Source of the DNA: Bacilli bacterium
GTDB lineage: Bacteria > Bacillota_I > Bacilli_A > RFN20 > CAG-826
Direction: 5' to 3'
DNA length: 42,757 nucleotides
Assembly: GCA_017479485.1 (NCBI GenBank)
Contig: JAFVCC010000020.1
Location: 1-42,757, forward strand
Every line of letters begins with the position of its first letter. Position 1 is the first letter of the stretch. The position numbers were made by a program, and so were the translations under genes. Shown here piece by piece: positions 288 through 22,852 of the stretch. The notes under the pieces were generated by a model. It searched no databases. It was not told the DNA's origin and saw only the letters and a list, made by a program, of their open reading frames with translations.

Positions 288-510
288 TTAATCAAAGATG
301 TTCCAATGAACTCACCAATGGAAATACTTCAGTAGTGCTCTGATAAGAAAGATCGGAAATCCGTTCGATAATCGTGCGGTGGATTCACGTAAAACGAAAA
401 ATGTGCCGACGACGTCGACACAATTTTGACTCGTGGAGCGCGATGCGGGCTGTTTCGGTGATGAATAATTAATCTCGATGTTATCGGAAGAATATCAAAA
501 TTATTTAGTG
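288..510. other. Intergenic stretch with no convincing gene
   Basis: No frame here has a start with a ribosome site and a plausible protein. The only structure I see is an imperfect inverted repeat, GTGCCGAC-gac-GTCGACAC, near 402-420 (one mismatch). It may be an old operator or chance. The segment lies between the winged-helix fragment and the repeat-bounded element. Confidence 0.4.
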
Positions 511-592
511 CTCTAAACATGTTGGGGGGTGCGGGGGGCCTCTAAACTTTCTGGGGGGACTTTCGACACCTATCTAAACTTTCTGGGGGGAG
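511..592. repeat. Three direct repeats of a CTCTAAAC...GGGGGG unit
   Basis: Units at 511-529, 540-560 and 573-592 share the core TCTAAAC followed by a G-run; the last two share TCTAAACTTTCTGGGGGGA. A closely matching copy lies inverted at 802-822. Multiple short subterminal repeats are typical of insertion-sequence ends, for example the IS21 family. No transposase gene is visible here. Confidence 0.6.
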
Positions 593-822
593 CCTTTTAC
601 GCCGAGAAAATCCATCGCGGCGAGCGCCCCTTTGGTAAGATCGCCGATGGCAAAGAACCACCCTATTTTTGGATAGAGGCGGGATTCCAAAGGGACGGAG
701 GCTCGCCGCGGCGGAGGAATTGGAGTAAATGGCCGGGCACCGAAAAAAGGGACTGAAGCCATCGTCCAGTCCCCCCATTTTCTTTAGTGGGATTTGCAAG
801 GGTCCCCCCAAAAAGTTTAGAG
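540..822. mobile_element. Small element bounded by 21-bp inverted repeats (MITE-like or IS remnant)
   Basis: The 21 bp at 540-560 and the reverse complement of 802-822 differ at one base, giving a 283-bp element. No intact transposase lies inside; a short minus-strand frame stops within the left repeat at AAAGTTTAG and could be the last codons of a lost transposase. I see no clear target-site duplication. An internal minus-strand terminator lies at 743-773. The repeats are seen directly; calling the element mobile is inference. Confidence 0.45.
743..773 (-). terminator. Rho-independent terminator
   Basis: On the minus strand GGGACTG pairs with CAGTCCC around an 11-nt loop, followed by TTTTTT. 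It would stop minus-strand transcripts running leftward past the terminator of the structured RNA at 865-892. Confidence 0.6.
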
Positions 823-864
823 CGCCTTTCTTTTTGCGAGGATTTCGTGATTTTTGGCCCATAT

Positions 865-892
865 AAAGAAAACGCCACGCATCGCTGCGTGG
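865..892 (-). terminator. Terminator of structured RNA copy 1
   Basis: On the minus strand CCACGCA-GCGA-TGCGTGG forms a 7-bp stem with a GNRA loop, followed by CGTTTTCTTT. The second copy at 14148-14176 has the same stem with a GCAA loop. Confidence 0.8.
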
Positions 893-2329
893 TGTCACTC
901 GGCTTTCCGGTTTAACGGCTTGTCTAGCTCCAATTTCGCCGGGACATTTCATATTCAAGGTTTACCTTGCGGGAGATTCCAACCAACCGCTCCTCAGGAG
1001 AAGAGGATCGTTCCTTACCTTGATGGCCCTTGATTCCATCCTATTCAGGAACAAGTTTTTTGTTCTGCGGTGTACCGCTGAGAGGAACTCTTATCCTCCT
1101 AGGCATGCCCTCGGCAACAACCTTGGCATGTCTTTGCTCCGGCCTTAGGTTATCCTTCTTAGCCTAAGTGCCTTAGCCACGTTCCGACTTCACGAGTTGC
1201 AGGGTGGAACGACTTCCTTCGAGGACCGTAGTCTTCGATCTCCCCTGGAGGAAGAACTCCAGGTTCGAGGCTTTTCCAGCGGTTTACCGCGCGCCGAGCC
1301 TCTTTTGGCACCTGCTGGTTATGAATTCCCAACAGTTCACGGACACCCCCAGCAGCATGAATGCTGCCGACTTGTTCGCAACCCCATTTCCAGTTTCACT
1401 GACGGCAGGGCTATCGTCGCTTCCTATGGGTTATCCCAGGAAGTCTACCATACGCGGCGGAGGATCTTTCAATCACGCGGATGCATACGGAGCAGAGACT
1501 TTTCGGTTTACCGTGAGCTTTCTGCAGGCTCGGAGGTTTTTCCCCTCTCGTGGTCTTGCAACCACATCCACTTGATTTCTATTTCCTAGTTCTACTAGGC
1601 GGCGGAGCGGATTGGATCGCCGCGGTCATCTTCTTTCGAAGCAGCCCGTTGACTCATTGGACCTTTGCTTTTACAAACAGAGGGTTTACTGAGGCCGTAA
1701 TTCTTGGTTTCCAACCAGCGGATTCGGTGTTCCGCATTGACGAATTACTTCGCCAATTTTGGTGGTTTCGTTCGTTTTGCCGAACTCCTCCATCTGCCTT
1801 GGTTTCTCCGGTTTACCGGTGGAGGCAGGCTTCCTCCCGGGTGTTACCCTTTCTCCTTTGTTCCGACCTCGGCAGGTCTTCGCTAGGGAATCATCACTCC
1901 TTTTCTAGTGCACTAGGCGGCGGTGATGTTGCCGCGTGGGTTTCCGGTGAAGGCCGTTCGCCCAGCTTTCGGATTTTCCCTTTCCAGAGCTTTCCGCAGG
2001 ACCCATTCTCCTAGATTCACTAGCCGCCTGGGTTTTCCTTCAGCGGTGGCTTTCCTTACCCCATGGCAAGGAGCCCTTGCGCTTGCCTCTTCCTTCAACC
2101 ATTTCAGATTGAAGTTTCTTCAAGCGTCCTCCCTTCACCGGTTTACCAGCAGGCGGAGCGTGCCTCAGGAAGCAGGTTTCAAGTTTCCTTCTTCCCTTTG
2201 TCTCTTACAAGGCAGCAGACCTTTCAGGAGTCAAGCTCCCTCGGGGCGTCTTGCGTTCCCCTCACCTTACTTTAGTAAGGTGTTTCCCCGGTTTCGCCCT
2301 GCCTTGCGGCTTGGCGTTCCCCGCGGAAC
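866..2329 (-). ncRNA. Long structured noncoding RNA, copy 1 (about 1.46 kb)
   Basis: The minus strand carries a sigma-A promoter (2335-2362), about 1464 nt without a convincing ORF, and a GNRA-capped terminator (865-892). A second copy of nearly identical length lies at 14149-15612. Stems that differ between copies keep their pairing. At 1244-1263 a 7-bp stem CCTGGAG/CTCCAGG corresponds to an 8-bp GAAA-capped stem at 14531-14550. At 1550-1565 GUGGU/ACCAC corresponds to GCAGCC-GUAA-GGUUGC. At 1905-1916 CUAG-UGCA-CUAG corresponds to CUCG-UGCA-CGAG. G-U pairs and GNRA loops fit the minus strand only, fixing the orientation. Short hairpins capped by UAAA recur, at 907-918, 956-969, 1279-1290, 1504-1513, 1808-1819 and 2138-2149; 1067-1078 has a UACA variant. 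Known giant RNAs (OLE, ROOL, GOLLD) are mostly 600-800 nt, so this may be a new class or a distant relative. The RNA call is strong; the function is unknown. Confidence 0.85.
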
Positions 2330-2334
2330 ACATA

Positions 2335-2362
2335 ACTATACGCTTCTTTAAAAAGGCGTCAA
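2335..2362 (-). promoter_or_regulatory. Promoter of structured RNA copy 1
   Basis: Minus-strand -35 TTGACG (2357-2362), 16-bp spacer, -10 TATAGT (2335-2340); predicted start near 2329. An A-tract precedes the -35 box. Further upstream is an inverted repeat TAGATAC-TTT-GTATCTA (2397-2413) and an ACGTGCGCACG palindrome, both also present upstream of copy 2. Confidence 0.8.
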
Positions 2363-5523: not shown

Positions 5524-6921
5524 TTAATTCAACGTCGCAGCGAAAATAAACATCGCATCGCAAAGTGGCTCATCCGCCTCGAAGTGAATCTCCTCGAGAG
5601 AAAAGCCGTTGATGGTTTCGCGGAGTTCGTAATTTCCGCCATCGGCAAGATAGAGGTCTTGGGCATCGGTATGGAGGCCGTGGATATCGAAGCCATGGTC
5701 GCAGCGGAGGTGAAAGAATCTCACGTTGCCGACTTTGATGGAACGAGGCTTGCGGTCTACGAAACAATCTCTTTGGAACTTCCAACCCACGTTCCTACTC
5801 GCTAGGTCCAAGGCGAGCGTATAGAATGCATCGCCTTGTTCGTGCGCGCTTTGATAGGCGGCATTCGCCTTGGCGACGCGATCATGAAACTTACTATCCA
5901 GGAACAAGTTTGTCTCCAATAGTTTATAGGTCAGCTCAATCCAACGCGATAAGGCAAAATGCAGTAACGATTTTCCTAGCTCGGCAATGGAGGCGAGGGT
6001 TTGCTCATAATGACCTAGCCGCTTGAGAGATCGTTTTAAATCGCGCAAGACTCCTTCCACGACTTCTACCTCCATGGTCCGTGGATGTCCTTTATATCCA
6101 CCGACTGCATCGCCGAGGCAGGCGCGGTGAAACCACTGGTTACGAAGCCATGAAACACGTTGGAATAATTCTTTGTCCCCAAGCTCGTCTTGGAACGAGC
6201 GGGACAGTTCTGAGAACCTTGGGGAATACGAAGCGACGGTTCGATTCGGCTCGCATTCTGCTTCTAGCGTAAGGAAGATCTTTTCCACGGAAGGGCGCAC
6301 GATTTGGCTTAAATACATTTGCTTTTGTTTGACGTCGTCGTCATATTGCGAGTAAGTCTCGTTGCTTTTGCCGCAGCATTTTTTCGCTTGGGCTTGCAAT
6401 TTGGCGTGAAATTGGACGAGGTTTTTCCTGCCGACATCAAAGAAGTTATCAAAACGGAACAAGCGGTGAATAATGGCGTGGGCTTGATACGCTTGGCTCA
6501 AAAAAATGAGGACGTAATACTGCCCAAATACAGTCAGTTCTTTGCCGCTACAGGTGATGTCAAACAAAGGCTGACATAGCGAAAGCATTTTGGCTTTAAG
6601 GCCGTCGTTCAAATAGAGTTTGCGGTTGCAAAAGATATGGGCAGCGTTGGTGCGGATGGCGGCGTAGAGGCTGAAAAGTTCGCGAACCTCCGTGCTATCC
6701 AGTTTGGAAACGATGGGGAGAACGGTCGAAAGTTTCACGATTTTATCCGCCTCTAGCGGATCGCGAACGTCCATGTGAATGGTGTAGAAGAGATATCGGT
6801 CGATATCGGAGCACCAAGAGATAAAACAACTTTTGATGCGGATGAGGGGGTTGCCAATGAGCTGATATCCTTCGAATACGCCCATAGACAAAGAAAGCTT
6901 TGCATTAGAAATTGCAGGCAT
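5524..6921 (-). CDS. Uncharacterised protein with two HEPN-like Rx4H motifs
   Basis: A 465-aa, mostly helical protein with no family I recognise. It contains two similarly placed segments, ELFSLYAAIRTNAAH (81-95) and ELFQRVSWLRNQWFH (251-265). Both read ELF-x5-(I/L)R-x4-H, 170 residues apart. The second matches the HEPN nuclease signature (R, polar residue, x3, H) well. Two HEPN-like halves would suggest a pseudo-dimeric RNase, as in many toxin or defence proteins; this is inference. No signal peptide is seen. The ATG at 6921 follows AAAGGATTCAAATA; the frame is open to 7029, but that start lacks a ribosome site. A promoter at 7217-7245 would give a leader of nearly 300 nt. Confidence 0.8.
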   Translation of the reverse strand: MPAISNAKLSLSMGVFEGYQLIGNPLIRIKSCFISWCSDIDRYLFYTIHMDVRDPLEADKIVKLSTVLPIVSKLDSTEVRELFSLYAAIRTNAAHIFCNRKLYLNDGLKAKMLSLCQPLFDITCSGKELTVFGQYYVLIFLSQAYQAHAIIHRLFRFDNFFDVGRKNLVQFHAKLQAQAKKCCGKSNETYSQYDDDVKQKQMYLSQIVRPSVEKIFLTLEAECEPNRTVASYSPRFSELSRSFQDELGDKELFQRVSWLRNQWFHRACLGDAVGGYKGHPRTMEVEVVEGVLRDLKRSLKRLGHYEQTLASIAELGKSLLHFALSRWIELTYKLLETNLFLDSKFHDRVAKANAAYQSAHEQGDAFYTLALDLASRNVGWKFQRDCFVDRKPRSIKVGNVRFFHLRCDHGFDIHGLHTDAQDLYLADGGNYELRETINGFSLEEIHFEADEPLCDAMFIFAATLN

Positions 6922-7335
6922 TATTTGAATCCTTTCAATATGGTTGCCTTTTATCGTTCGAAAGGCGGCGAAGTCGCATTCGCGATGGAAAACAGCATCG
7001 CTGATGAATCGCGGGCCCCAATAGATCATCTTTGTAGGGGCAGACAGAAAACAGGGTTCTTTGTGAGTTACTTATCTCGAAGATAAGAGCCATTCCATTC
7101 CGGAATCGACATTCTTCTCGGGCGTTTTCTGCGGAGCAGGATTCACGAGGAGTGCTTTTGGAGCGTTTCTACGTGTTCGTTATCCTCCCTTCAAAGATAG
7201 AACCGCTTCCTCAACTATTAGATAGAAGGGCGAAAGAAAATTCAACAAAAGTTCCGAGGAATTTTTGCATCAAATTTCAAAAATCGTAGCAAAAAATCAA
7301 AAAAACTGCGCAGAAGTCGTTTAATTCCGTTGAAA
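6922..7335. other. 414-bp intergenic region with promoter, long leader and possible leader peptide
   Basis: The region between the 333-aa gene and the 465-aa gene holds a minus-strand promoter at 7217-7245. In the leader there is a 14-codon ORF at 7068-7112 (MSIPEWNGSYLRDK) preceded by GAGAAG. Its end overlaps an inverted repeat CTTATCT-tcg-AGATAAG. Near 7260-7320 the minus strand is T-rich after CTGCGCAG and may terminate the 333-aa gene. No larger gene is visible. Confidence 0.4.
7217..7245 (-). promoter_or_regulatory. Probable promoter of the 465-aa protein gene
   Basis: Minus-strand TTGAAT (7240-7245), 17-bp spacer, TCTAAT (7217-7222). Predicted start near 7210, about 290 nt before the chosen ATG. 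Confidence 0.5.
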
Positions 7336-8337
7336 CTATTTTTTGAAGCCAAAGTGGCGTTGCTTGAATCTTGCGTTATTCATGGTCGTGCGATCAATGC
7401 CTTTTCGCTGCACGTAGGTGGCGTAGGTCCAGCGCCTGAAGCATTCGGTGACCAGATCCAAATAGACTTCATCTTTGTCATTTAGACTATAGATAAAGAT
7501 CGGCTCACAGTCTCGCTCAAAGAAAATGACGATGGCGCTGGCTTGTTCGGGAATGAGTCGCGGATCCCATTCGGGGACCTTCTCGAAATCCTTGAGTTGC
7601 CCTTGATACGGGGCGTCGAGCTCGAGGAAATGCAAGTAGTCCTCACGGTTACGAAAGCCCAAAGCATAAGCGACGTCAGAGCGATTGGCCATATGGTCGA
7701 GCCCATGAATGTCCACATTCTTAAATACAGCGCCCGGGATCAAGATGCGCGGAAAGGGTGGGTTATCACGGAAATGGAAATAGCGGAACGTAAAGCCAAA
7801 GTCCTGTGGCTCGCCTTCATATACACCATGGAGGACATTTGCATTGCTCTCTTCGAGCAGGTCTTCAGGAAACATGCGATGCTTATCCCGGAAACGGGAA
7901 CTATCGATTTCCAGCAAGTGACCGAATAATTCGTTATCCTCGTCGCTTTTATAAATCTCCAGCATTAACTCGATCGCCTGAGCGACGCCTTCGGCCCGAG
8001 TCCTATCCACTTCTTCATCCGATGATTGAGGGATGTAGAGGTGACGGACTACCCGCTCCTCGCAATATATCGTGGTGTAACAAGATGCCGACACGGCATA
8101 GAAGGGCTTATGGCCCTCGATATGCGTCGTCGTAGTCTTGATGAAGTAGATGTACGGAAAGGGGACCATGCACTCATAAATTTTGGTCATGAAGCCATTC
8201 TCGCTAAGGTCCGCTTCAGCCCAGTAATAAACCTCATCTTCATAGAAATCGATATGGGCTATAGCGGAAGCAAAAACATGCTCGCGGTCCACACACAAGC
8301 TTCCTCTGTAAACAAGCGATTTTAAGGGTTTTGCCAT
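7336..8337 (-). CDS. Uncharacterised protein, paralogue of its upstream neighbour (333 aa)
   Basis: A soluble 333-aa protein of unknown family, clearly related to the 335-aa product upstream. Shared features are an early YEDEVYYWAEADL (YDDELYYIAEQDI in the partner), MVPFPYI, a central IPGAVF and MANRSDVAYALGF, DFEKVPEWD, and a C-terminal RRWTYATYV followed by a basic tail ending RHFGFKK. The ATG lies 6 nt after the stop of the partner and about 8 nt after AAAGG. Tandem duplication followed by divergence is the simplest history. There is no signal peptide or membrane segment. The basic C-terminus could bind nucleic acid, but that is speculation. Confidence 0.75.
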   Translation of the reverse strand: MAKPLKSLVYRGSLCVDREHVFASAIAHIDFYEDEVYYWAEADLSENGFMTKIYECMVPFPYIYFIKTTTTHIEGHKPFYAVSASCYTTIYCEERVVRHLYIPQSSDEEVDRTRAEGVAQAIELMLEIYKSDEDNELFGHLLEIDSSRFRDKHRMFPEDLLEESNANVLHGVYEGEPQDFGFTFRYFHFRDNPPFPRILIPGAVFKNVDIHGLDHMANRSDVAYALGFRNREDYLHFLELDAPYQGQLKDFEKVPEWDPRLIPEQASAIVIFFERDCEPIFIYSLNDKDEVYLDLVTECFRRWTYATYVQRKGIDRTTMNNARFKQRHFGFKK

Positions 8338-8343
8338 GGTTTT

Positions 8344-9351
8344 TTACCTTTTTGCACGAAAATTGTGACGGTTTAACCGATTGGGGTCGATCTTATTTTT
8401 CTTGCGGTGGGTCCGCTCGATGAACGCCTCATAGGTCCACTGCTGCATACAACGATATCCAAAAGTATCAAGAGTGAAAATATCCTGCGTGTCTTGAGCA
8501 AGCGTGAGGCAGTCATACCTTCCGGCAAAGAAGTAGACAACAAGGAGAGGTATGTCTGCTTCGACGAGAGAGAAATCGCCTTCGGGCACCACTTCGAAGT
8601 CTTCAATGGGCTTGACGTCCTTTTCCTTCTCGATGAATTCCGCCAGTTCACGGTAATTCTTAAAGCCCAAGACGTAGGCGATGAGGCGGCAATCAATGAA
8701 GTTATCGATGCAATCGAAGTCATAGGCGCTAGGAATCGCTCCGGGAATATCGATATAGTGGTAAAGGTCCCCTTCCCGAATATGGAGGCGTTTTTCTAAG
8801 ACGCCCACTTCGATGAGTTCGTTCCCCCGGATGCAACGAAGCCGGTTTTTTCGGCTCCAGGCAAGCGTTTCCTCAGGAGTCATTTGGTACGCTTCGGTAA
8901 AGAACTTCCGTTTGCTTTCTAGAAAGGAAGCTAAGTCCTGGGCTTTCTTATCCTTTTGGTAGTTTTGCCAAAGTAATTCAAGGAGCTTCCGAACCTCTTG
9001 ACGCCGCTCTACGTCAAAAGGAACCCCATTGCCGCTTTGTGGTATCTCGATGCGGCGGGCGACGTTATGCTGTTTCCGTAAATCTTCATAGCAATCGACC
9101 CACACACATTGAAACGGGTCGTAGTTAATGCTGCCCAGTTCCTCTTCTTCGATGGATTGAACCAGGCAATAAGGCACCATGAATTCCTGCAGAAGCTTGT
9201 CATAAGATCCATCGCCTTCGATGTCTTGCTCTGCAATGTAATAAAGCTCGTCATCATAAATCTCTAAGATGACACGGCAATTTTGGTAAACATCCCTTCC
9301 GCCGTCGCGGAGTCTGCCCAAAAAAGTTAAAATCTGCAGAAGCTTGTTCAT
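8344..9351 (-). CDS. Uncharacterised protein, first of the tandem paralogue pair (335 aa)
   Basis: A 335-aa soluble protein related along its length to the 333-aa product: YDDELYYIAEQDI near residue 32, FMVPY, DIPGAIPSAYD, CRLIAYVLGFKNY, DFEVVPEGD, and QQWTYEAFI followed by a basic tail ending RHNFRAKR. I recognise no known domain. The ATG at 9351 has only a weak ribosome site, but it lies 8 nt after the stop of a 31-codon ORF with a strong one (9360-9455), which suggests translational coupling. The divergent neighbour is the ZIP transporter. Confidence 0.75.
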   Translation of the reverse strand: MNKLLQILTFLGRLRDGGRDVYQNCRVILEIYDDELYYIAEQDIEGDGSYDKLLQEFMVPYCLVQSIEEEELGSINYDPFQCVWVDCYEDLRKQHNVARRIEIPQSGNGVPFDVERRQEVRKLLELLWQNYQKDKKAQDLASFLESKRKFFTEAYQMTPEETLAWSRKNRLRCIRGNELIEVGVLEKRLHIREGDLYHYIDIPGAIPSAYDFDCIDNFIDCRLIAYVLGFKNYRELAEFIEKEKDVKPIEDFEVVPEGDFSLVEADIPLLVVYFFAGRYDCLTLAQDTQDIFTLDTFGYRCMQQWTYEAFIERTHRKKNKIDPNRLNRHNFRAKR

Positions 9352-14147: not shown

Positions 14148-14176
14148 AAAAGAAAACGCCACGCATTGCTGCGTGG
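14148..14176 (-). terminator. Terminator of structured RNA copy 2
   Basis: Minus-strand CCACGCA-GCAA-TGCGTGG followed by CGTTTTCTTTT. It has the same stem as copy 1 with a different GNRA loop. It separates the RNA from the transporter gene downstream. Confidence 0.8.
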
Positions 14177-15612
14177 TGTCACTCGGCTTTCCGGTTTAAC
14201 GGCTTGTCTAGCTCCAATTTCGCCGGGACATTTCATATTTGAGGTTTACCTCGTGGGAGATTCCAACCAACCACGTCCCTTGCGGGATTCGTTCCTTACC
14301 ACCATCGCACGCTTGACCATGCGGGGCATTCAGGAACAAGTTTTTTGTTCTGCGGTGTACCGCTGAGAGGAACTCTTATCCTCCTAGGCATGCCCTCGGC
14401 AACAGCCTTGGCATGTCTCGACCTTCGCTACGGGGTACATCTTCATTCGCCCGATTGCTACGATCACGTTCCGACTTCACGAGTTGCAGGGTGGAACGAC
14501 TTCCTTCGAGGACTTTCGTCTTCGATCTCCCCCATACCTTTCGGCATAGGTTCGAGGCTTTTCCAGCGGTTTACCGCGCGCCGAGCCTCTTTTGGCACCT
14601 GCTGGTTATGAATTCCCAGCAGTTCACGGACACCCCCGGAGGCACAAGTGCCACCGACTTGTTCGCAACCCCATTTCCAGTTTCACTGACGGCGGGGCTA
14701 TCGCAGCGCCCTGGTTTTTTCCAGGTACGCATATGCCTTGGAACGTCAGCTTCTCAGCGACGCCCTGATCCAAGGCAAGCAGACACTTTTCGGTTTACCG
14801 TGGGCTTTCTGCGGGCCCGGAGGTTTTTCCCCTCTCGCAACCTTACGGCTGCATCCGCTTGATTTCTATTTCCTAGTTCTACTAGGCGGCGGAGCGGATT
14901 GGATCGCCGCGGACATCTCCTTTCGAAGCAGCCCGTTGACTCGATGGCCCGTCATCCTTGCGGAATTGGGGATTCCCGAGAACCACTGTCTTCAGGTTTA
15001 CCTGGCGGATTGGTTCTTCCGCGCATTGGTCTCACGACCACGCTTTGACGCTTCCGGAACTTGCGCTCGTTCTTCGTCAGCCCTGATTCATCCGGCTTAC
15101 CGGCGGAGGCAGGCTTCCTCCCGGGCGTTACCCATTGTCCATTGCTACAGCCTTGGCAGACGTTCACTCCGGATCGGCCAATGTTTTTCTCGTGCACGAG
15201 GTGGGTTTGGTCTTCCCACTTGGGTTTGCGACGAAGTTCGCTACCCCAGATTGTGGATATTCCCTTTCCAGGGCTTTCCACAGGACTCCTTTTCAAGCTA
15301 ACGCTTCCGCCAGAGCAACCATCGGCGGTGGCTTTCCTTACCCCATGGCAAGGAGCCCTTCACAAGCGCTTCCTCCAAACGTCGTTTCAGACGCTTGTTT
15401 CTTCGCTCGATCACCTCATTCATCGGTTTACCGATCGGCGAGGCATTCCTTCCGATTCGCCATCAAGCGACGAACCGCATTTGATGTTTGCACATCAGCA
15501 GGCCTTTCAGGAGTCAAGCTCCCTCGGGGCGTCTTGCGTTCCCCTCACCTTACTTAAGTAAGGTGTTTCCCCGGTTTCGCCCTGCCTTGCGGCTTGGCGT
15601 TCCCCGCGGAAC
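14149..15612 (-). ncRNA. Long structured noncoding RNA, copy 2 (about 1.46 kb)
   Basis: This is the second copy of the RNA at 866-2329, with matching promoter, terminator and length. The first 100 nt and many single-stranded parts are almost identical to copy 1, while several arms are replaced by other sequences that still pair. Examples are GGCA-CUUG-UGCC at 14641-14652 (GCAGCA-UUCA-UGCUGC in copy 1, 1352-1367) and CCUGG/CCAGG near 14710-14724 (CUUCCUGGG/CCCAUAGGAAG near 1430-1442). UAAA-capped hairpins recur at 14241-14252, 14567-14578, 14791-14800, 14993-15004 and 15422-15435; 15092-15103 has a UAAG loop. The RNA sits between the LOG gene and the transporter gene on the same strand, but its own signals make it an independent unit. 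Plus-strand frames of up to 187 codons are antisense and change frame relative to copy 1. Confidence 0.85.
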
Positions 15613-15617
15613 ACATT

Positions 15618-15645
15618 ACTATACGCTTCTCGAAAAAGGTGTCAA
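15618..15645 (-). promoter_or_regulatory. Promoter of structured RNA copy 2
   Basis: Minus-strand -35 TTGACA (15640-15645), 16-bp spacer, -10 TATAGT (15618-15623); start predicted near 15612. Spacing and upstream A/T-tracts match copy 1. Confidence 0.82.
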
Positions 15646-15688: not shown

Positions 15689-15705
15689 TAGATACAAAGT
15701 ATCTA
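15689..15705. promoter_or_regulatory. Conserved inverted repeat upstream of the RNA copy 2 promoter
   Basis: TAGATAC-AAA-GTATCTA lies at the place equivalent to 2397-2413, with the arms unchanged and the central triplet reversed. Confidence 0.45.
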
Positions 15706-17531: not shown

Positions 17532-18494
17532 TTAATCGTTATGCAGGAAATAAACCTGCAGCATCGCGCGGTGGCAATCGAAATAATAATCGTAATAATC
17601 GCCTTTGCTATATGGCGACAAAGAACCGCGTATAAAAGCGTTGATTTCTTCCGACTCAATCGGAAAATGAAAACGTAGAACCGTGAAGGAGTCTACTTTG
17701 GTTTCCACCACTTCCGCCTCTTCGGCTTGATAGCCATAAGTCACTTCGCCTTTATGGCGCATGGTAAAGAGCAGGTCATCTTTCGGGCACCTCGGGAAGG
17801 AGACGCCTTCGAGTTCGTGATGATCTTCATGGATTAAGTCATCGTTGTTGAATAAATATAGGACGCCTTGGACCATCTTTTTCGTAATCGAGGCATTCCA
17901 CGCGAAATCGAAATGGTAATAGTCGCGCCCGATGCGGATGATGTTCCATGCGTGGCTCACGGTCGCACCGTCTTTCTCTGCTTTTCCAGCGACGATCATA
18001 CATTCAAGCCCAATACGGTCGCAGATTAACGCCGCTGCTTTGGTAAAGCCTTCGCAGCGAGCTTTTCGCTCGATTAAAGCCCCGTAGGCGGTGCCATTAG
18101 TCTTGCTTTGGTGATTTTCTCCACCGACACGGCGGCAGAGATAGCTGTTGAGCCGCTCGACTTTCTCAACGTCCGTATGGCAATCGCGGAGGATGATCGC
18201 GCTGATGCGCTCCACCTCGCGAAGCACCTCACTGCTACGCTGCGCTAGCTCGGAGCCCGAGGAGATAAACTCAAAGACAAACTCCCCGTTAGAAATGCTG
18301 AAGCGCTGAGAAAGAAGAAGATTCGGGTTGCCGAAGCTAATCGCTTCAGAGAAGAGCTCGAACTCCTCCTGAGACGGCGTTTTGGTTAGGCTGCAAGGAA
18401 CGCGGTCCCTGCCGCTTCGAAGCGCAGCGACGCAATCGCCATAGGCGGACTGAAGTTCCCTGCCTAAAGCATCAAAGTAAGGGTTGGCAATCAT
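17532..18494 (-). CDS. Transglutaminase-like cysteine protease-fold protein, operon gene 9
   Basis: A 320-aa protein with a transglutaminase-like domain. The Cys-His-Asp triad is visible at C147 (ARCEGFTKAAAL), H181 (SHAWNII) and D196 (YYHFDFAWN). No signal peptide is seen, so it probably acts in the cytosol or on the cytosolic end of a membrane partner. Bacterial relatives are usually peptidases or protein cross-linkers. Its ATG overlaps the stop of the InlB/Hint gene by ATGA, so production is coupled to it. Processing or cross-linking that protein is one idea, but they may lie on opposite sides of the membrane. Confidence 0.82.
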   Translation of the reverse strand: MIANPYFDALGRELQSAYGDCVAALRSGRDRVPCSLTKTPSQEEFELFSEAISFGNPNLLLSQRFSISNGEFVFEFISSGSELAQRSSEVLREVERISAIILRDCHTDVEKVERLNSYLCRRVGGENHQSKTNGTAYGALIERKARCEGFTKAAALICDRIGLECMIVAGKAEKDGATVSHAWNIIRIGRDYYHFDFAWNASITKKMVQGVLYLFNNDDLIHEDHHELEGVSFPRCPKDDLLFTMRHKGEVTYGYQAEEAEVVETKVDSFTVLRFHFPIESEEINAFIRGSLSPYSKGDYYDYYFDCHRAMLQVYFLHND

Positions 18495-21400
18495 GCGGGC
18501 ACCTCCATATAGTGAGTTTGGAAGATAGTGAGAAGATTGATGAGGCCTTCTTCATTTAATGAACCAGTGCCAAGCACGATAGAGAGGTACTTTGCATTAT
18601 CGATGACATAATAGACTTCTGGAGCCAAGTATTCACCGAAGTCTTCAGGCTCCGTTGTTCCATAAATCTCCAGCAATTCAACCATATTTTCCGGAATAAC
18701 CACATGGTTTTCGTCCATCTCAAAGATGTTCATAAATGCATCCATTTCGACAAAAGTACCGAGCACGCCATTGAAGTAATGGTTCATCGTTTTACCGGTG
18801 AAAATCGCGCCGGTATCAGTCGTACCGATTCCAGCGTCGACGCTGAGCAGCGTTACATGCGTGCCATCGTCTTTGAAGAACTCGTGTCCGATGAGTCGCT
18901 CGTAGTTATACTTATTGACCGTGATGTAGCGGTTGGTGGTCGCATCGAACAAACCATGCTGATCGATGATTTCCAGCGTGGTATCGTCGGAGAAGAGAAG
19001 ATGCATAATGAACTCCGTAACATCCGTAGTTGTGTGGGCATAGAGCACCGGAACAGCGCATTCTTCGCCCGTATAGTGGTCAAAGGCGAGCACCATGTCA
19101 CCGGGACGGACATCGCGGATCATCTTGGTGGAATAGTCGGCCATGGTGATCAGAGTATCCGCGCCAACGCAAGTAGGTTTAGCATCCCAAGTGGCGTAAA
19201 TCTTAATATCGTGGTCAGGCATCGGAGTCTTTTCATTAAAGACCGCGTCGGTACCCTCAACCTTCCATTGTATGAAGGTATATTCCGTATTGTTTTCTTT
19301 AGCCCTTGAAACAGGAGTCAAAGGTCCCGTTTGCCCATAGTAACGGTTCAGAGTTGCAGCGCCATTTAGCTTCCCGCCGTCCGGGTCGAAAGTAATCGTA
19401 TAGATAAGCTTCTCCCAAATCGCATAGAGGGTCGTATGTCCCGTAACAACCGCATTGAAGTCAAAGGCGCTAGTAGCATTCGCGCTGGCGCCCCAATAAA
19501 GGAAGCTAAGTCCTGTTCCACTTGGATCGGCGGGTTTGGCAACCTTGTCACCATACGTAACCGTAACGGCATTAGGCACGTTTTGGATGTTGTGTGAGAC
19601 GGGGTAATTGTCGTCGTTAGCAACGAACGTAATGGTGCACTCCCACTTCGCGTAGAGGGTCATAGAGGCCTCCGGACGATCGCGGGTGAAGTCCCACTTG
19701 TTCTCGAAGGTCTTTTCCTTATACCAGCCCACAAAATGCCATGAAGGCAGATCCTGGGTTTGCGGATCGGTAACATTCTCGCCGTAGACGACGATTTCGT
19801 TATTGGGAAGGGCGCCGATGGGGCTAACGTAGGAGATGGTGTAACGCTCGAGGTCATAGGTCGCCACGACGTTCAACGGACCATTAATGGGGTCATCCGG
19901 ATTAAACGTGGACTTGTTTCCATTCGCATCGACCACGAGCCAGCGACCTTGCGTATAGCCTATTGCCGCAGGAACGGAGGGAACTTCAGTGAGTTTCTCA
20001 CCTTGATTCACCATGTATTCCTTGGTGTAAGTGCTATCGACGGAAGAAGAGAACGAAACCTTGAATTGCGTCCTTTCCCAACGCGCATAAAGGTCTAAGA
20101 CGGTGTCAGTAGGCGTCGCAAAGTAATCTTCGCTGATGCGGTCGGTCTTGAAGTCCCAAAGGAGGCTATCGTCTAAAGACTCACCGCGATACCAGCCTAC
20201 GAAGGTCCAGCCGTATTCTTCCATGACGCCCGGATTGGCCACCGCCGCGCCATAGCCACGTTCTTGACTCGGATAGGTCGCGCCATGGCCGTTACTATGG
20301 AAGTTAATCGTGTATTTCAACGCTTCCCATTTCGCGTAGACATAAGTTGTCGTCTTGTCGATTCGATAGTGTTCGAAATCAAACGGCGTCGTACGCGCTT
20401 CATCTTCAAACCAACCCTGGAAAACATAGCCAGGAACATGGGCGGGCACGGGAGCAACGCCGCCGTTGACGGGTTCATCAGGAACATAATCGTGTTCGTC
20501 TTTTGGGGCCACGCCAACGCCGCCCATGTCATAGACGACAACATAATTGCCATCGCTGACCCAATGGGCTTTTAACGTGATGTCCCCTTCGACTTTCTTG
20601 CCGAAATCCCATGGGGTGCCGTTCTCATCGAACCAGCCGACGAACAGCCAGTGCGCCGCGGAAGGATCCGCAGGTTTTTGAACCAAATCGCCAAAGCGGA
20701 TGGTTTGATCCGCAATTGGCTCTGCAGCTTTGCCGTCAAGGTCAAAATGTACCTTGTGTTCAATGCCAAACCAGATTGGAGTAAGAAGCGTTTCAAAGGT
20801 TGGCTCGAAGTTGTTGTCCTCTTGGTTGGTAGCATAGCTATCACGGAGCGATTTATAGATTTTGTTGATGTCGGCGGAGACAAGGTATTCGCCTTGGTTG
20901 TTTAATTCTCCAGCGTATTCGGGAGAAGTGAAGTGTTGGAACATGTAGCCATAACGGGAAATGCTTCCGGTTAAATGGAAGTCTTCGCCATAAGCTGCCG
21001 TGCCATCGTTATACATGGCGTCGGAAGCGCCAAGTTCGCTCGAATCAAAGCGAACCTGGAACGTATTCTTTACGAAGTATGGTTCTAAGGTTACCGCGCT
21101 GACATCGTGGAAGTTGTCTGTACGGAAATTTTCGCCGCCGTCTGCATCGACTAGATTGCTAACGCTGGCTGCGGTAAGACGGTCGAATTCCGCGCGAGAG
21201 TCGACATAAATCAGCCCACTCTCCACATCTTTCCAGCCCACGAAGCGGTAACCCTCTTTGGTCAACGCATCACGATAGCTTCCCCACGAAAGGAGATCGA
21301 TTGGGTTGTAATCATAATGACGGACGGGATCGACATGCAAAGTCGCCCCGTCTTTATCCAAGTAAGTGATGCCGAAAGATTCATTTGGGTTGAAAACGGC

Positions 21401-22852
21401 ATATAAATCAATGTTTTTTGACTCGATATCGCGAACATAGAAGGAGGATACGACGTCACCGATTTGGTATTCCGCCGCGGTAGCGTTTTTGCTCCTGCTA
21501 AAGCCGATGAATCTTCCTTCGCCAGGAATCTTCTTTGTCGGAACGGAAATTTCCACCGGGGAGCCATAGGAGAAAGTGGATGACGCGATGACTTCGTCGC
21601 CGTTTAAATAACGCACGTTAAACTCAGGACGAGCCCAAACGCCGTAAAGATGGTAATCGAAGGTGTCGGTTTCAAAGAGGTGGAACGCCGTTTCTAACGG
21701 CCCATAGGTAACTTCACGCGCATCAGGGTCAGCGCTCCAGCCGCGGAAAATGTAGTCTTTCGCATAGGCTAAGCCATCTGCCTTAGGCAAGGCGACGCCG
21801 TCGTTATAAAGGAAACCGTCTTCCTGCTTTTCCGTATTGGTCGCGCCATCGCGGAAATGGAAGTGGACGGTGTATTTCTGCGCCTCAAAGCGTGCATGGA
21901 GCTTCACATCGCGGTCGAAAACCATGTCCTTGCGATAGTCGCTGCCACGGTCATTGTATGTCCAGCCACGATACGTGTGTCCTTCATAGGAAATGGGATG
22001 TTCACGTTCTAAGTCCGCATAGGTGCTTCCTCTCGTGACTTCGAGGGAAATATATTCTTTAACGTTCTCCTCTGCCTTTTCAAAACTCCCGCCTTCGCGA
22101 TAAAGCAGCACGGAGACCTTGTTGGTAGAAGAAGGCGTGATGAAAATCCGCTGGTTCACCTCGGCCCAAGTGGGGCTTGCCATATAGTCGTTATAGAGAC
22201 TCTCTTTGACATAAATATGGGCGCCAGAGGCGATGCGATTTGCATCGATTGCCGCGAGGACTTTATCGCTCTTTATTTCAATCCGTTCCAAGCGCGGAAG
22301 CATTTCAAAATCACTAAAATCAAGGGGGGCGTCAGTCTGAATTTGAAGATTTTTAACCGTGGCGAATTCGCTTTCGGTAATGAGGCCATCTTCCTCAAGG
22401 TTATAGCCTGAACCCGTTAAATACGCCGAAGTGGATTCGCTTGAGAAAGCGATGGTAAAAGGCGCTTCGACAACCACGTCTTCAAACGAGGTCTTCTGAT
22501 ATACGATGCGGCCCGAGCCGATGCCGACCGCGGTAAATGCCGTGCCGTCCTCAGAAAGCTTGAGCAAGCCATCATTTTGGACGTAGTCCTTGCCGTTTAC
22601 GAGCGCTTCAACGCGGACAATATAATCTTTTTTCTTAATCCAATCGAACGTCTTCGCGTTATCGCTGAGCATGTCGTCCATGGCCATGGATGCGCGGAAT
22701 TGTAATGGAATTCCCTTCACGTTCTTGTCCGCGTGCTCGGTCTGCAAGAAGCGCTTGGTATAGAAGCTTGAGCCCACGCCCGCGCCGGCGGCGACGAGAC
22801 CAAAAACGGTAAAGAGAAGGAATGGAGTACGTTTTTTTACATAAGCTGGCAT
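18491..22852 (-). CDS. InlB-repeat surface protein with C-terminal Hint domain, operon gene 8
   Basis: A 1453-aa protein. The N-terminus has a basic start and one hydrophobic segment (about residues 11-32), likely a signal anchor. After a domain of unknown type come about ten InlB B-type (Listeria-Bacteroides) repeats with the pattern YTxxFxxxG...GWY...LYAxW, between about 300 and 1225. From C1228 starts a Hint (intein/hedgehog-type) domain: CVGADTLITMAD, VRPGDMVLAFD, a QHGLF block and TMNHYFNGVLGTF. Such repeats are adhesive or structural; Hint domains can self-cleave or ligate. About 90 residues follow the Hint core. It is unusual to find such a surface protein inside an operon of cytosolic ATPase and GTPase genes. 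Confidence 0.85.
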   Translation of the reverse strand: MPAYVKKRTPFLLFTVFGLVAAGAGVGSSFYTKRFLQTEHADKNVKGIPLQFRASMAMDDMLSDNAKTFDWIKKKDYIVRVEALVNGKDYVQNDGLLKLSEDGTAFTAVGIGSGRIVYQKTSFEDVVVEAPFTIAFSSESTSAYLTGSGYNLEEDGLITESEFATVKNLQIQTDAPLDFSDFEMLPRLERIEIKSDKVLAAIDANRIASGAHIYVKESLYNDYMASPTWAEVNQRIFITPSSTNKVSVLLYREGGSFEKAEENVKEYISLEVTRGSTYADLEREHPISYEGHTYRGWTYNDRGSDYRKDMVFDRDVKLHARFEAQKYTVHFHFRDGATNTEKQEDGFLYNDGVALPKADGLAYAKDYIFRGWSADPDAREVTYGPLETAFHLFETDTFDYHLYGVWARPEFNVRYLNGDEVIASSTFSYGSPVEISVPTKKIPGEGRFIGFSRSKNATAAEYQIGDVVSSFYVRDIESKNIDLYAVFNPNESFGITYLDKDGATLHVDPVRHYDYNPIDLLSWGSYRDALTKEGYRFVGWKDVESGLIYVDSRAEFDRLTAASVSNLVDADGGENFRTDNFHDVSAVTLEPYFVKNTFQVRFDSSELGASDAMYNDGTAAYGEDFHLTGSISRYGYMFQHFTSPEYAGELNNQGEYLVSADINKIYKSLRDSYATNQEDNNFEPTFETLLTPIWFGIEHKVHFDLDGKAAEPIADQTIRFGDLVQKPADPSAAHWLFVGWFDENGTPWDFGKKVEGDITLKAHWVSDGNYVVVYDMGGVGVAPKDEHDYVPDEPVNGGVAPVPAHVPGYVFQGWFEDEARTTPFDFEHYRIDKTTTYVYAKWEALKYTINFHSNGHGATYPSQERGYGAAVANPGVMEEYGWTFVGWYRGESLDDSLLWDFKTDRISEDYFATPTDTVLDLYARWERTQFKVSFSSSVDSTYTKEYMVNQGEKLTEVPSVPAAIGYTQGRWLVVDANGNKSTFNPDDPINGPLNVVATYDLERYTISYVSPIGALPNNEIVVYGENVTDPQTQDLPSWHFVGWYKEKTFENKWDFTRDRPEASMTLYAKWECTITFVANDDNYPVSHNIQNVPNAVTVTYGDKVAKPADPSGTGLSFLYWGASANATSAFDFNAVVTGHTTLYAIWEKLIYTITFDPDGGKLNGAATLNRYYGQTGPLTPVSRAKENNTEYTFIQWKVEGTDAVFNEKTPMPDHDIKIYATWDAKPTCVGADTLITMADYSTKMIRDVRPGDMVLAFDHYTGEECAVPVLYAHTTTDVTEFIMHLLFSDDTTLEIIDQHGLFDATTNRYITVNKYNYERLIGHEFFKDDGTHVTLLSVDAGIGTTDTGAIFTGKTMNHYFNGVLGTFVEMDAFMNIFEMDENHVVIPENMVELLEIYGTTEPEDFGEYLAPEVYYVIDNAKYLSIVLGTGSLNEEGLINLLTIFQTHYMEVPA

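Follow-up and report, generated by a model that had tools for sequence, protein, structure and literature searches.

ROOL, which is located in phages and prophages and often lies near tRNAs, forms a homo-octameric nanocage, and OLE localizes to the membrane with Oap proteins. GOLLD is the largest of the three classic ornate RNAs, with many members longer than 800 nt, and both ROOL and GOLLD assemble as homo-oligomeric cages, the solved ROOL being a phage-associated RNA of 659 nt (PMC12286853); OLE is about 600 nt long (PMC9723947). By size and style these three are the closest described systems (PMC12286853; PMC9723947) to the RNA described here, which comes from the window, by which we mean the whole 42,757-nt stretch of DNA that was analyzed. 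Computational comparison of this DNA with related genomes identified two copies of what is almost certainly a structured noncoding RNA gene, a judgment made from sequence alone, with the following features:

866 to 2328, minus strand: ncRNA gene copy 1, a predicted transcript of ~1,463 nt, kept across ~35 copies, with covariation, promoter and terminator
14149 to 15611, minus strand: ncRNA gene copy 2, 77% identical to copy 1, with 41 pairs altered on both sides relative to copy 1
2335 to 2362, minus strand: promoter of copy 1, TTGACG-N16-TATAGT, preceded by A/T tracts
15618 to 15645, minus strand: promoter of copy 2, TTGACA-N16-TATAGT, recognized from the sequence
866 to 892, minus strand: intrinsic terminator of copy 1, CCACGC-AGCGAT-GCGTGG-CGTTTTCTTT, with compensatory changes in relatives
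2397 to 2413, no strand: operator-like palindrome TAGATAC-AAA-GTATCTA, ~33-34 bp upstream of the copy 1 -35 box
15689 to 15705, no strand: operator-like palindrome of copy 2, about one helical turn farther upstream than at copy 1

An earlier note on this DNA had read a structured noncoding RNA of about 1.46 kb on the minus strand, with a good promoter, dense stems, a terminator, no convincing ORF and no family to which it could be assigned, and every part of that reading was upheld. The promoter at 2362-2335(-) has counterparts in 31 of the 35 homologous copies, which carry a -35/-10 pair, mostly TTGNNN-N16-TATAGT, with A/T tracts upstream, and we infer that the copy 1 transcript starts ~7 nt past the -10 box. 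At the other end, the terminator at 892-866(-) is preserved in relatives through compensatory changes in its stem (CCAGGC/GCCTGG, CCTCGC/GCGAGG and CCCCACA/TGTGGGG). Compared with 20 dinucleotide shuffles, the minimum free energy (MFE) z-score was -7.5 for copy 1 and -11.7 for copy 2, against -1.3 for a neighboring gene. Since the antisense strand also scored -6.5, single-sequence energy does not fix the strand; we assign the RNA to the minus strand because of the promoter, the terminator and the greater number of G-U than of A-C cells in paired columns (801 vs. 422), which is in line with a minus-strand RNA. Transcription itself is inferred from the conservation of promoter and terminator, without transcript data. 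Two details, the second copy and the repeat architecture described below, were absent from the note; the second copy was recovered as a full-length match in the window's own genome (14135-15630, same strand as copy 1, 77% identity).

Coding capacity on either strand was ruled out by frames that are not conserved and by the pattern of indels. The longest frames differ among copies in position and strand, are mostly antisense and mostly no longer than in shuffled sequence, with a few antisense frames exceeding the shuffles, and in three pairwise comparisons of close copies only 3 of 71 indels had a length divisible by three (68 did not). No conserved ORF and no coding-type indel pattern was found across the homologous copies, so that a conserved ORF with protein-like changes, one of the outcomes that would have refuted the RNA reading, did not materialize.

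The second such outcome, a lack of covariation among homologues, was likewise not met. Covariation was evaluated on 31 non-redundant sequences by a G-test with average-product correction, with a null in which the inferred substitutions were replayed at random sites along the tree, a procedure modelled on the idea of R-scape but not R-scape itself. Over all column pairs 21 pairs were significant, 20 of them within the RNAalifold structure (18 and 17, respectively, in an earlier alignment), and when the test was restricted to the structure 78 of 361 pairs were significant, with 43 of the 72 helices holding at least one. Three alignments simulated without structure gave no significant pair in either form of the test. 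Comparison of the two window copies showed 41 pairs altered on both sides and still paired, 28 altered on one side and 27 broken, against 4-6, 11-15 and 95-100, respectively, in a control with slid partners. Structure and covariation test came from one alignment, a concern which is eased by testing all column pairs, by the controls and by comparing the two copies directly. The long-range helices are almost without covariation support, and a helix closing the 5' and 3' ends (871-880 with 2309-2318) was dropped because its 5' strand varies while its 3' strand is invariant in the copies compared.

The third possibility raised beforehand was that a scan with the Rfam covariance models would reveal a known class. 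No match was obtained in Rfam 15 at the gathering threshold, nor at permissive E-values for the window copy and five homologous loci, and among these five loci there were zero matches at E <= 0.5 to group II introns, rRNA, tmRNA or any other Rfam RNA; the open-access literature likewise yielded no such RNA. With Rfam silent, covariation strong and no ORF conserved, the structured noncoding RNA reading stands, and nothing marks it as a known class.

The nucleotide search for homologues that had been proposed did find them: BLASTN returned matches in 19 of the 31 genomes of the window's genus (18-19 of 31 when BLASTN and covariance-model searches are taken together), and no match in the sampled other genera. 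Covariance models made from two ~130-nt blocks of the RNA recovered the same genus genomes and added four genomes of a second genus of the same family, whose copies share the architecture when read. Relatives thus number 23 genomes in two genera of one Bacilli family, usually with 1-3 copies per genome and often with two. Weak covariance-model matches in genus g44 and in G215 look false and were dropped: when read, L142 and L143 fall inside a coding region or coincide with a terminator of another kind, and L144 has no feature of the RNA. Searching 84,980 species genomes with a 20-mer from the core returned 27 contigs, each from an uncultured Bacilli, Bacillales or Erysipelotrichaceae MAG and many tagged rumen or abomasum, and the named loci are from uncultured Bacilli/Erysipelotrichaceae genomes, mostly from rumen; in a class-wide sample of 395 genomes the window's own genome was the sole match. 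A phage, viral or plasmid origin was set aside because phage records, viral contigs and plasmids gave no match in any collection searched. Complete copies are all 1.38-1.60 kb long, the main group measuring 1.38-1.47 kb and a divergent subgroup B (L032, L034 and L035) ~1.56-1.60 kb, and the two groups occur together in genome G011. In the tree the copies of the two genera interleave, which suggests, on sequence grounds, either duplication before the genera split or later transfer. Twelve of the 31 genus genomes, including nearly complete ones, are without the RNA, which is therefore dispensable. In G004 a lone match to the RNA 3' end (C7:32964-33048, E 4e-10) lies ~760 bp downstream of a full copy and is possibly a truncated relic.

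Upstream of the promoter, the palindrome TAGATAC-N3-GTATCTA or a variant of it lies 31-36 bp from the -35 box in 15 of 28 testable copies, compared with 1.8% of shuffled sequence, and its two arms change together; in the window's genome the exact palindrome occurs only at the two RNA genes. We infer that a dimeric DNA-binding regulator, an activator, probably controls the promoter. No recurrent neighboring gene or protein family was found beside most copies. The window copies adjoin chromosomal housekeeping genes, with no tRNA in the window, and the M18 aminopeptidase locus next to copy 1 is retained in G018 and G003. Since neighbors differ among copies and lie on either strand, with no particular gene attached, the RNA probably acts in trans, again an inference.

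Several other elements were recorded in these surroundings. One contig (L055, G003:C198) joins the copy 1 upstream flank to the copy 2 downstream flank, either by a deletion through recombination between two RNA copies or as an assembly chimera. Just downstream of copy 1, at window positions 510-823, lies a short element bounded by inverted repeats of ~20-24 bp (GCTCTAAAC...TTGGGGGG), with additional direct repeat copies at one end, which looks like a MITE or insertion sequence remnant. Elsewhere, positions 18491-22852 encode a 1,453-aa protein with four Listeria-Bacteroides repeats (Flg_new), the C-terminal part of which reads by eye like a Hint/intein domain that Pfam did not report, and three consecutive proteins (501, 333 and 335 aa) at 5524-9351 have no Pfam match.

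Within the RNA itself, the outstanding property is repetition. URNA-tetraloop hairpins whose stem has 4 or more pairs number 5-9 per complete copy (6-9 in most), compared with 0.3-1.1 in shuffles. In the family alignment eleven URNA or closely similar hairpins follow each other at intervals of 126, 108, 97, 104, 117, 85, 104, 112, 210 and 110 columns, the hairpin being missing at one of twelve expected positions. The units and associated features of copy 1, with the evidence for each, are as follows:

2263 to 2282, minus strand: first hairpin unit, CACCUUAC-UAAA-GUAAGGUG (covariation, hairpin count, copy comparison)
2129 to 2158, minus strand: unit with a URNA hairpin inside a CUCC/GGAG-type helix (covariation, anchors, copy comparison)
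2012 to 2046, minus strand: M1, hairpin A (2024-2046) and URNA hairpin (2012-2023), with a pseudoknot of loop and 3' tail (pseudoknot test, copy comparison)
1905 to 1935, minus strand: M2, hairpin A (1917-1935) and URNA hairpin (1905-1916), pseudoknot CAUCAC/GUGAUG (pseudoknot test, copy comparison)
1808 to 1837, minus strand: M3, hairpin A (1821-1837) and URNA hairpin (1808-1819), pseudoknot GCCU/AGGC (pseudoknot test, copy comparison)
1705 to 1735, minus strand: M4, hairpin A (1718-1735) and second hairpin (1705-1717), pseudoknot CCG/CGG (pseudoknot test, copy comparison)
1585 to 1622, minus strand: M5, hairpin A (1600-1622) and second hairpin (1585-1599), pseudoknot AUCCGCU/AGUGGAU (covarying pseudoknot pair, E below the resolution of the null)
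1492 to 1525, minus strand: unit with URNA hairpin CGGUAAACCG enclosed in a helix (covariation, anchors, copy comparison)
1382 to 1410, minus strand: unit with a CAGUGAAACUG hairpin inside a CCCC/GGGG helix (covariation, anchors, copy comparison)
1213 to 1342, minus strand: most conserved core, GGAAUUCAUAACC ... GGCGCGCGGUAAACCGCUGGAAA (conservation)
1180 to 1211, minus strand: expected position of a twelfth unit, a conserved stem-loop without a URNA loop (anchors, copy comparison)
1067 to 1099, minus strand: M6, twin hairpin with loop AAG and tail CUU (pseudoknot test, copy comparison)
957 to 990, minus strand: M7, twin hairpin, pseudoknot unsupported (pseudoknot test, copy comparison)

Most units contain a URNA-looped hairpin of 4 bp and, after it, an A-rich linker, and in seven units a 5-6-bp hairpin stands directly before a second hairpin. 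With curated anchors the period of ~105 columns gave R = 0.90 and p 0.003 or less when compared with randomly spaced positions kept a minimum distance apart, and it was not significant with unfiltered, uncurated hairpins (p 0.065); both the repeat anchors and the pseudoknot regions had been picked by eye before testing. The units also resemble each other outside the hairpins, with z-scores against shifted anchors of 6.7 for sequence (4.3 without the A-rich tail) and 5.5 for the bracket pattern. Five of these, M1-M5, form a pseudoknot between the first hairpin's loop and the tail that follows the second hairpin. Loop and tail taken from one copy match each other better than loops and tails drawn from different copies (z 3.5-6.8, permutation p <= 0.0002), and for M5 the unbiased covariation scan recovered the pairing as well. 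An M6 pseudoknot is plausible and could be little tested because its loop AAG and tail CUU are nearly invariant, and the loop-tail fit test gave no support to a pseudoknot in M7. The core is conserved at 85-92%, with the unpaired stretches GAAUUCAUAAC and GCGCGGUAAACCGCUGGAAA invariant. As predicted from these comparisons, the RNA is a chain of about a dozen similar pseudoknot-and-hairpin units of ~105 nt, a modularity that was unexpected.

Taken as a whole, the explanation we consider likely is that of a new giant structured noncoding RNA class with its own promoter and terminator, acting in trans as a multivalent scaffold of about twelve units. The RNA would be transcribed from its own strong promoter and end at its own intrinsic terminator, the repeated units would offer an identical docking surface many times, and the RNA would join copies of itself or many copies of one protein into a large particle, its specific activity being held by the conserved core at window positions 1213-1342. 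This scaffold mechanism by itself, oligomerizing or binding many copies of one protein around a conserved core, is an inference that we hold only tentatively; no partner protein was identified, nor any ligand or oligomer interface. That about twelve tandem, diverged, pseudoknotted units of ~105 nt make the RNA an analogue of repeat proteins, a scaffold of extended or ring-like shape which displays a docking site a dozen times and carries one conserved active unit, stands just short of an even chance.

Set beside a protein sponge, a ribozyme and a cage of the ROOL/GOLLD type, a scaffold or particle fits best, at odds that remain below even, and these readings overlap. In the first, the URNA hairpins would titrate a single RNA-binding protein in the manner of CsrB/CsrC and CsrA. 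Most complete copies offer 6-9 hairpin sites that are nearly identical, and the trans location and the possible dedicated regulator site upstream speak for this reading too; we judge it unlikely, as a sponge could do without the five locked pseudoknots, the unvarying length and a core of such conservation, and no partner protein was identified. A ribozyme or RNA machine, with a catalytic core (catalysis being inferred) and the repeats as its scaffold, would account for the invariant unpaired stretches of the core and for the size and intricacy of the RNA, but the absence of a match to any known ribozyme or intron family in Rfam leaves it distinctly unlikely. Equally doubtful is an oligomeric cage, perhaps phage-derived: no Rfam model and no phage record, viral contig or plasmid matched, and the window copies sit among chromosomal housekeeping genes without a tRNA near, even though size, ornate structure and rumen origin are alike and ROOL and GOLLD form homo-oligomeric cages (PMC12286853). 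A further reading, mobile or selfish DNA with a structure that counts at the DNA level alone, or else a decayed gene, could explain multiple copies at different loci, a patchy spread across the genus and the G003 contig that fuses the two flanks. It is very improbable given that the compensatory changes include G-U pairs on the strand predicted to be the RNA, that promoter and terminator are conserved, that the element has neither a transposase linked to it nor a long conserved frame, and that several copies retain their neighbors between species.

Apart from rRNA, very few bacterial RNAs exceed 1 kb and are demonstrably structured, and the RNA described here, outside Rfam 15 and well supported by covariation, is about twice the size usually quoted for GOLLD. 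If the repeat reading is true, it would clearly exemplify a natural RNA constructed on the plan of a repeat protein, well suited to cryo-EM and to learning what giant RNAs do; its two paralogues, the operator-like site and the patchy spread in one genus provide handles for genetics and transcriptomics.

Compared with known systems, the new RNA shares with CsrB/CsrC-type sponges, in which one RNA carries many copies of one hairpin motif, the repetition of a hairpin (URNA here, with protein binding inferred), whereas those sponges are much shorter, lack pseudoknotted units and a long conserved core, and their covariance models were unmatched. In the preQ1-II riboswitch the loop of a hairpin pairs with a downstream segment and a second hairpin sits in the intervening sequence, a likeness to our units in topology only, since here the fold recurs along one RNA that is not a cis-regulatory leader and has no Rfam match. 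OLE, like the new RNA, is large and highly structured, has a conserved core and belongs to Gram-positive anaerobes, but at about 600 nt (PMC9723947) it is shorter, its covariance model was unmatched, and the new RNA, set against it, has no recurrent neighboring gene or protein family. ROOL, first found in rumen samples, is also very large with multiple pseudoknots; its covariance model did not match at gathering or permissive E-values, its phage or prophage and tRNA context is absent here (the window has no tRNA, and nothing matched in the phage, viral or plasmid collections), and its description, in the accessible portion of PMC12286853, is without the ~105-nt internal repeat. GOLLD is likewise a giant, ornate, standalone bacterial noncoding RNA of unknown function, but it occurs in phages and prophages near tRNAs, where the new RNA is chromosomal with no tRNAs in the window and no matches in phage or viral collections, and its Rfam model was not matched. 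We do not file the new RNA under GOLLD, ROOL or OLE because no Rfam model matches and the phage and tRNA context of ROOL and GOLLD is absent. With all complete copies at 1.38-1.60 kb, against more than 800 nt for many GOLLD members (PMC12286853), the suggestion of the earlier note that the RNA would rank among the longest structured bacterial RNAs apart from ribosomal RNA is borne out. We regard it as a new RNA class, for which "large ornate RNA" is a loose umbrella that would cover it.
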